From Alexandriicola marinus (GTDB lineage Bacteria; Pseudomonadota; Alphaproteobacteria; Rhodobacterales; Rhodobacteraceae): a DNA stretch of 64,000 bases. The stretch's first letter is position 1. Each line of letters begins with the position of its first letter. The DNA is taken from positions 682,001-746,000 of the forward strand of contig NZ_RBVZ01000001.1 of the NCBI RefSeq assembly GCF_004000435.1. Reading direction: 5' to 3'. Made by a program: the position numbers and the translations under genes. Shown one piece after another: positions 16,018 through 23,070 of the stretch. The notes below the pieces were generated by a model. The model saw only the letters and a program-made list of their open reading frames with translations. It searched no databases and was not told the DNA's origin.

Positions 16018-16073
16018 CGGACTGTCCTTTCTGGCGCGCGAATGGGCTGTTTGGTCGAAGGTGGGAAAGGGGC

Positions 16074-16109: not shown

Positions 16110-16556
16110 TCAGGCCTGAGAGGCTGCGGCGTCGTCGGTGCCGGCGTCGGCCTTGCGGGCCCGGTCGTTCATGAACTGGTCGAACTCGGCCTTGTCCTTG
16201 GCCTCGCGCAGACGCTCGAGGAACTCTTCGAAGCTGCGCTGCTCGTCCTCAAGCCGGCGCAGGGTCTCGGTCTTGTAGGCGTCGAAGGCCGAGTTTCCCG
16301 AGGACCGCGTCGCGGTGCGGAAAGAGGAACGGGTCGAACGTGCGGTGCAATTCTTCGAAAACATCTGCTTGCTCCAGATCATATAGGCGAGAAGGGCGAG
16401 GCCGACGGGCCAGAAGGCGATGAAGCCAAGGACCATCGCGGCGATCCATGCACCCTTGCCGCGCTCGTCGAGCCAGGTTTCGGCCCGGGCGAACCAGTTG
16501 GGGCGGTCGACCCCGCGATGCATGGCATTGGGGGGCTGGATATCGGTGGTGGACAT
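16110..16556 (-). CDS. DUF2852 domain-containing membrane protein
   Basis: A 148-residue protein with one clear transmembrane segment (about residues 35-60: GAWIAAMVLGFIAFWPVGLA) and a charged coiled-coil-like C-terminal half (AYKTETLRRLEDEQRSFEEF). This fits alphaproteobacterial DUF2852 proteins of unknown function. AAGGAG precedes the ATG. Its upstream region carries two near-identical palindromes and a leader hairpin (listed separately), implying specific regulation. Confidence 0.85.
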   Translation of the reverse strand: MSTTDIQPPNAMHRGVDRPNWFARAETWLDERGKGAWIAAMVLGFIAFWPVGLALLAYMIWSKQMFSKNCTARSTRSSFRTATRSSGNSAFDAYKTETLRRLEDEQRSFEEFLERLREAKDKAEFDQFMNDRARKADAGTDDAAASQA

Positions 16557-16580
16557 GCGGGTCTCCTTGTTTGGTCGGGG

Positions 16581-16607
16581 CCGCGGGGTTTGGTGGCATC
16601 CCCGCGG
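16581..16607 (-). promoter_or_regulatory. 5' leader hairpin of DUF2852 mRNA
   Basis: CCGCGGGG and CCCCGCGG form a perfect eight-pair stem with an eleven-base loop, ending 25 bases upstream of the DUF2852 start and so close to the ribosome site. It would form in the 5' untranslated region and might affect translation or mRNA stability. Confidence 0.5.
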
Positions 16608-16613
16608 TGTTGA

Positions 16614-16632
16614 ATGTGAATGCCTTTCACAT
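16614..16632. promoter_or_regulatory. palindromic operator copy 1 upstream of DUF2852 gene
   Basis: The site reads ATGTGAATGCCTTTCACAT, with perfect outer arms ATGTGAA and TTCACAT. A near-identical second site starts 58 bases away at 16672. A duplicated dyad upstream of one gene is strong evidence of a specific regulator. The spacing (TGTGA-N7-TCACA) is one base longer than the Crp consensus. Confidence 0.65.
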
Positions 16633-16671
16633 CCTCGATATTGGCAACCGGACCCCGTGGATCAAGACGTG

Positions 16672-16690
16672 ATGTGAATGTTTTTTACAT
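16672..16690. promoter_or_regulatory. palindromic operator copy 2 upstream of DUF2852 gene
   Basis: The site reads ATGTGAATGTTTTTTACAT and matches copy 1 at 16 of 19 positions, including both outer arms. It touches the 3' end of the ybaK-like gene. With copy 1 it flanks the likely DUF2852 promoter, an arrangement suited to cooperative binding or looping. Confidence 0.6.
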
Positions 16691-17170
16691 TTATTTTAAT
16701 TTCGTAGTGAAATCAGATACTTGCGCGCCAGATATCTCGATAAGGCGCGTTGGTGCGATGCGGAAAACATGCCGTGGCGTGCCTGCAGCGGCCCAGATTT
16801 CCGCGAATTCGGTCAATCTCGGGTCGAAATAGACGGGCCCCGGCGTCAGGTGCCCGACAGGCGAGACCCCTCCGATGACAAAGCCTGTCCGCGCGCGGAC
16901 AAAGGCCGCGTCCGCCGCATCGAGCGCTTCGCCCGCGACCTGTTGGGCCAGACCGGGATCGACCCGATTGCCGCCGGCGGTGACGAAAAGGTGGACGGCA
17001 CCGCTGTCGGCCCCCCGGAAAATGATGGATTTCGCGATCTGATCCAGCAGGCAGCCGACAGCAGCGGCGGCTTGCGCGGCGGTGCGCGTCTCGTCCCCAG
17101 TCTCGACGGGTTCGATCTCGAGGCCGGCCCCCCGGAGGGCAGTGATCACGCGTTTGAGGCTCTTGCTCAT
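16691..17170 (-). CDS. YbaK/EbsC family aminoacyl-tRNA deacylase
   Basis: A 159-residue YbaK-fold protein: KSIIFRGADSGAVHLFVTAGGNRVD near 47-70, and FVIGGVSPVGH near 97, the family's conserved GG-SP-GH loop. Relatives hydrolyse mischarged Cys-tRNA(Pro) or Ala-tRNA(Pro). The precise substrate is not determined. It is divergent from glnE. Confidence 0.88.
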   Translation of the reverse strand: MSKSLKRVITALRGAGLEIEPVETGDETRTAAQAAAAVGCLLDQIAKSIIFRGADSGAVHLFVTAGGNRVDPGLAQQVAGEALDAADAAFVRARTGFVIGGVSPVGHLTPGPVYFDPRLTEFAEIWAAAGTPRHVFRIAPTRLIEISGAQVSDFTTKLK

Positions 17171-22945: not shown

Positions 22946-23070
22946 CCTGAGAGCCTGCAATTCAACTCAAATTTGCACCTAAGTCTCCTCATTTCGGCCC
23001 CGTTCGGCGGCTACGACCAAACAAAGGCCCGGTAATGGAAACAATCGCCGGGTCAGCCAAGGAGATTGTC

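Follow-up and report, generated by a model that had tools for sequence, protein, structure and literature searches.

Genetic organization of the DUF2852 locus

The window, i.e. the whole 64,000-nucleotide stretch that was analysed, carries on its reverse strand a gene encoding a DUF2852 protein, with a gene for a YbaK/ProX-like aminoacyl-tRNA editing protein upstream (Table 1). The DUF2852 product has a predicted membrane helix and a helical tail. Its AlphaFold model is all-helical and of low confidence (pLDDT 60), and was set aside as a fold-search query. The mentions of DUF2852 found in the literature do not concern its regulation, and the same search returned nothing relevant on the regulator or the motif described below. 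In Bradyrhizobium, bll7160 (DUF2852) appears in a table of microoxia-regulated proteins beside GroEL and Hsp20 (PMC6515984), while BR2114 (DUF2852) of Brucella was reduced in a mapB mutant (PMC6377625). Both data sets are compatible with an envelope or stress role of the protein, without specificity. A second, diverged DUF2852 match lies near the first copy in three genomes (G018, G032 and G050). The 10-mer CGACCAAACA is present in three exact copies in the window (0.06 expected), at 16048-16057 (-), 16568-16577 (-) and 23014-23023 (+); it is placed just upstream of both DUF2852 and an RDD gene, plus once more.

Table 1. Position of the genes and predicted control elements at the DUF2852 locus (window coordinates).
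Feature	Position	Strand	Remarks
DUF2852 gene (PF11014, 148 aa)	16110..16556	(-)	profile match E 3.7e-46
Leader hairpin, eight pairs	16581..16607	(-)	stable fold; particular to this genome
Proximal operator (predicted)	16614..16632	(-)	ATGTGAATGCCTTTCACAT; 0 mismatches to ATGTGAA-N5-TTCACAT
Predicted -10 element CCAATAT (consensus CCVATNT), RpoH-like	16638..16644	(-)	alignment of 73 loci
Predicted -35 element CTTG (TTG at -36 to -34)	16663..16666	(-)	alignment of 73 loci
Distal operator (predicted)	16672..16690	(-)	ATGTGAATGTTTTTTACAT; 1 mismatch to ATGTGAA-N5-TTCACAT
YbaK/ProX-like aminoacyl-tRNA editing protein gene, upstream	16691..17170	(-)	stop codon abuts distal operator

The DUF2852 gene is preceded by the twin palindromes that an earlier note on this DNA had described, both at the positions it gave and 58 bp apart from start to start. 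On the coding strand, the proximal site reads ATGTGAAAGGCATTCACAT and spans -3 to +16 of the predicted start, and the distal site reads ATGTAAAAAACATTCACAT and spans -61 to -43. When up to 3 mismatches were allowed, the window contained 4 matches to the palindrome against 0.9 expected, a number reached in none of 100 shuffles. Across the 4.6-Mb genome of the window (hereafter G000), the strict pattern ATGTRAA-N5-TTYACAT matched the two DUF2852 sites only, and a reversed control pattern gave 0 matches. A third site in G000 (C35:80758), located inside an ABC-transporter permease-like reading frame, was taken as chance.

The TGTGA and TCACA arms are separated by N7, which makes the dyad odd; the even dyads of Crp or FNR sites (TGTGA-N6-TCACA or TTGAT-N4-ATCAA) were not found in either palindrome. 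On this geometry and the absence of other genomic sites, Crp, FNR and PpsR were rejected as the regulator, in agreement with the earlier note, which had set the dyad apart from the sites of all three.

The twin sites are conserved in Rhodobacteraceae

Both sites were found in 77 of 80 DUF2852 loci from public Rhodobacteraceae genomes, the 80 being the best matches to the window protein and hence a sample of close relatives; a family sample with one genome per genus, used below, is free of that bias. Of the exceptions, L025 and L070 run into a contig end, and L029 retains just a degenerate proximal site. The distal operator is the same or nearly the same in 77 of the 80 orthologous loci. The coding-strand consensus is ATGTAAAAAACATTCACAT for the distal and ATGTGAAAGRCATTCACAT for the proximal site, with outer arms that are almost invariant in both. 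The spacing, the window counted, is 58 bp in 50 loci, 59 in 22, 57 in 1 and 68-70 in 5. The argument from helical phasing (58 bp corresponding to 5.5 turns, 68-70 bp to about 6.5) was given up, since loci spaced at 68-70 bp have a longer, partly composite proximal site that makes the measure ambiguous. The pair was thus kept upstream of orthologues, a check on which the earlier note had made its proposal depend, and its view of the pair as a specific control element of DUF2852 is borne out, as far as sequence can tell. Lone extra strict sites away from DUF2852 were seen in a few genomes (G044:C69:203764, G013:C1:1887699, G027:C55:54778, G038:C2:141319, G031:C57:49593 and G147:C161:3036); they are possibly additional targets or chance matches.

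A putative RpoH-type promoter lies between the operators

The region between the two palindromes could be aligned in 73 loci. The TTG of the -35 element is present in 73/73 and C-37 in 69/73, and the gap between CTTG and the distal site is nearly constant at 6 bp. Downstream comes the CCVATNT element, its A 24 bp away from the first T of TTG, with C-15 in 68 loci, C-14 in 68, A-12 in 63, T-11 in 66 and T-9 in 67. TTG at -36 to -34, C-14, A-12, T-11 and T-9 at fixed spacing are the marks of RpoH-dependent promoters, and this arrangement was found across the 73 loci. The conserved bases of RpoHI/RpoHII promoters of Rhodobacter sphaeroides fall at coinciding positions (PMC3441632): CTTG at -37 to -34 and the distances of C-14, A-12, T-11 and T-9 are alike, whereas the DUF2852 promoter is sandwiched by operators of a predicted dedicated repressor. 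From this consensus, the promoter appears to be of the RpoH (heat-shock sigma, sigma-32-type) kind; the region also allows a weak sigma-70 reading. The predicted start, at about 16629, falls within the proximal operator, and the distal operator stops just upstream of the -35 element.

The earlier note had also assigned a control role to a leader hairpin. Its eight pairs do fold (-17 kcal/mol locally), and the 82-nt leader including the palindrome has a folding z of -2.97. The role itself found no support: the locus alignment revealed almost no conservation of the leader after the proximal operator, an Rfam search of the leader matched no family, and the hairpin is probably not part of the control. 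The same observations bear on the idea that the palindrome works in RNA, as a leader stem-loop with the second hairpin acting through attenuation or mRNA stability. The proximal palindrome and the hairpin can each fold single-stranded, as this idea needs, but the distal palindrome is located before the promoter, the hairpin lacks both conservation and an Rfam family, and in the palindromes the bases themselves are conserved, beyond pairing. We give an RNA mechanism practically no chance.

A TetR/AcrR protein is the candidate regulator

In other alphaproteobacterial families, a TetR/AcrR gene (TetR_N + TetR_C_33) was found directly upstream of DUF2852, and the products of these genes are 55-72% identical to the first of ten. 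Among the 16 TetR-bearing genomes of the class sample (142 genomes), tetR is adjacent to DUF2852 on the same strand in 13. In 10 of these 13 loci, the same 19-bp motif lies over the tetR start codon, and in 11 a 25-bp composite, ATGTNAATGT-N5-ACATTNACAT, precedes DUF2852. Two 19-bp sites, offset by 6 bp and hence overlapping, can be read in the 25-mer. In whole-genome scans of the 13 adjacent-locus genomes and G000, 11 genomes had a single 25-mer each, in front of DUF2852, and no other 25-mer turned up (at most 1 mismatch); the 19-mer was confined in the 14 genomes to tetR and DUF2852, plus one further strict hit. These scans suggest a regulon that is essentially tetR + DUF2852.

The G000 ortholog is encoded at G000:C1:1065624-1066241 (54% identity, E 2.8e-67), downstream of ppk2 and about 367 kb from DUF2852. 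It has both the TetR_N domain (PF00440, 43.8 bits; gathering cut-off 24) and the TetR-type C-terminal ligand-binding domain (TetR_C_33, PF13305, 54.4 bits; cut-off 26.8) that mark the TetR/AcrR family. Where its reading frame starts is uncertain (the mechanical ORF list gives TTG), and no motif site was found at its own start, so that autoregulation is not seen in this genome.

The two genes also occur together. In the class sample, DUF2852 is present in 21 genomes and TetR in 16 (counted above 150 bits, a line drawn after the scores were seen); the family sample, 61 genomes, has DUF2852 in 54 and TetR in 55. All 16 TetR genomes of the class sample are among the 21 with DUF2852 (p = 4e-17) and 54/54 DUF2852 genomes of the family sample have TetR (p = 1.3e-7), both p values treating genomes as independent, which is true only roughly. 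No TetR above 150 bits was found in the 121 class-sample genomes without DUF2852, the next-best such score being close (147.7 bits). In the family sample, 6 of the 7 genomes without DUF2852 are also without TetR, and all 6 TetR-less genomes are without DUF2852; G019 (91% complete) has TetR without a DUF2852 hit. The operator follows the same pattern. With at most 1 of 12 positions wrong, it was found at 15/15 DUF2852 loci in tetR+ genomes versus 0/5 in tetR- genomes, where at least 2 of the 12 positions are wrong. The class-level DUF2852 genomes without TetR and operator are G069, G140, G151, G177 and G183. Because these five have DUF2852 without TetR, the gene can also be controlled otherwise. 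From their distribution, regulator and target appear to have been gained and lost together.

Co-occurrence, synteny, the autoregulatory site and the negative-control genomes thus single out the protein at G000:C1:1065624-1066241 as almost certainly the regulator of the palindromes, where the earlier note had left the regulator unnamed. An unlinked global regulator (Crp/Fnr-like, LysR-type or two-component) could bind the palindromes instead, with the TetR co-occurrence incidental; the arms do resemble the Crp half site TGTGA, and tetR is unlinked in G000. Such a regulator predicts many sites, however, and in nearly every genome the strict ones are at DUF2852 only. Operator and TetR are moreover present or absent together, the motif also stands at the adjacent tetR start, and the odd dyad is not Crp-like. 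We consider this alternative very improbable.

A further question is the sign of the control. The same TetR might be an activator or mixed regulator acting from the distal site, the proximal one only tuning its effect: activators can touch the polymerase from the distal position, and the 6 bp to the -35 element are fixed in most loci. Against this, three features are typical of repression: the predicted start site lies under the proximal site, the adjacent families have their only DUF2852 operator near the beginning of the gene, and the site at tetR overlaps that gene's start codon. Repression is favoured for these three reasons, and activation seems unlikely.

Evolution of the operator, the recognition helix and the linkage

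Of the 54 DUF2852 genomes in the family sample, 44 have twin sites; G049 is included on its count alone, and the proximal site of G011 is partly composite. The other 10 have a single operator, in most cases the 25-mer. One of these ten, G015, has the composite together with a degenerate distal 19-mer, an apparent intermediate. In the ten, tetR is adjacent (G008, G023, G057, G059), 1-4 kb off (G001, G004, G015), about 10 kb away (G014) or on another contig (G037, G017). Genomes with a single operator have S-x-x-A-P in the recognition helix, except G004 (TPAAL) and G017 (SPSAM); the 42 twin genomes examined all have T-P-x-A-V. Helix type agrees with operator type in 65/65 genomes (23 single, 42 twin); the helix was unread in three of the 54 (G022, G028 and G034), G022 and G028 having broken or partial copies. 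The TetR tree places a single change of the helix (S..AP to T..AV) and a single change of the operator (single to split-twin), both on one weakly supported branch (SH-aLRT 77). This covariation is consistent with co-evolution, but it is one event, and as a single coincident change it was downgraded from independent proof.

tetR follows ppk2 in 38 of 48 scored Rhodobacteraceae loci (ppk2-tetR loci: L135 502-2118; L167-L195, L217-L238). Because it does so in the near-linked genomes G001, G015 and G057 too, the gene order suggests ppk2-tetR-DUF2852 as the ancestral arrangement in the family. In the Rhodobacteraceae, the composite would then have given way to two separate 19-bp sites, the autoregulatory site would have been lost and tetR unlinked from DUF2852. 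ppk2 encodes polyphosphate kinase 2, and if TetR is linked to polyphosphate or nucleotide state, this might be a clue to its signal.

Proposed mechanism and relation to known systems

The sites, their conservation, that of the promoter, the co-occurrence, the synteny and the shared motif are established by sequence. Taken together, they make it very probable that the palindromes flank an RpoH-type promoter of DUF2852 as two operators of a dedicated TetR/AcrR repressor that is released by a ligand. One TetR homodimer would sit on each operator; with the distal operator next to the -35 region and the proximal one over the start site, bound repressor would exclude RNA polymerase. A ligand on the TetR_C_33 domain would free TetR from the operators, and DUF2852 would be made only with the ligand present and the stress sigma factor active. 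In most other Alphaproteobacteria with both genes, where tetR is directly upstream of DUF2852, TetR would use the 19-bp site at the tetR start codon to repress itself and the 25-bp composite operator to repress DUF2852. Binding, repression, ligand release and RpoH use are the steps that we infer. A broader account falls a little short of being probable: a class-wide, essentially one-target pair of TetR repressor and target whose ancestral 25-bp composite was resolved into an operator on each side of an RpoH-type promoter while two residues of the recognition helix changed, the autoregulatory site disappeared and the regulator moved away; DUF2852 would be a stress inner-membrane protein under the joint control of sigma factor and ligand.

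TetR, SimR and DesT are local repressors that bind as a dimer on one palindrome, with 15-17 bp operators (PMC4150764). They resemble the present system in TetR_N, in an odd palindrome of similar size, in an operator over the start and, for the adjacent families, in the autoregulatory site. The target here is a DUF2852 membrane protein instead of an efflux or lipid gene, the regulator is about 367 kb from it, and two separate operators surround one promoter. QacR/CprB-type TetR repressors have long operators of 22-32 bp, bound as a pair of dimers (PMC4150764). By analogy, the 25-bp operator of the adjacent families, two palindromes overlapping by a 6-bp shift, may accommodate two dimers, whereas the Rhodobacteraceae sites are 58-59 bp apart without overlap, those of the window being separate 19-mers. 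The control of one gene by a TetR protein is known; the TetR-DUF2852 pair with its unusual operator rearrangement is new. The earlier note had found such specific control unusual. One small gene under a TetR is in fact common, and it is the split operator pair and the relocated regulator that are unusual.

A membrane protein that is uncharacterised yet widespread in Alphaproteobacteria (BR2114 in Brucella and bll7160 in Bradyrhizobium are examples) thereby gains a candidate regulator, and this in turn offers a route to the inducing signal and hence to the function of DUF2852. The series of natural intermediates may show by what steps a local repressor and its operator become rewired once regulator and target separate, and the nearly one-target regulon would make a clean test system.
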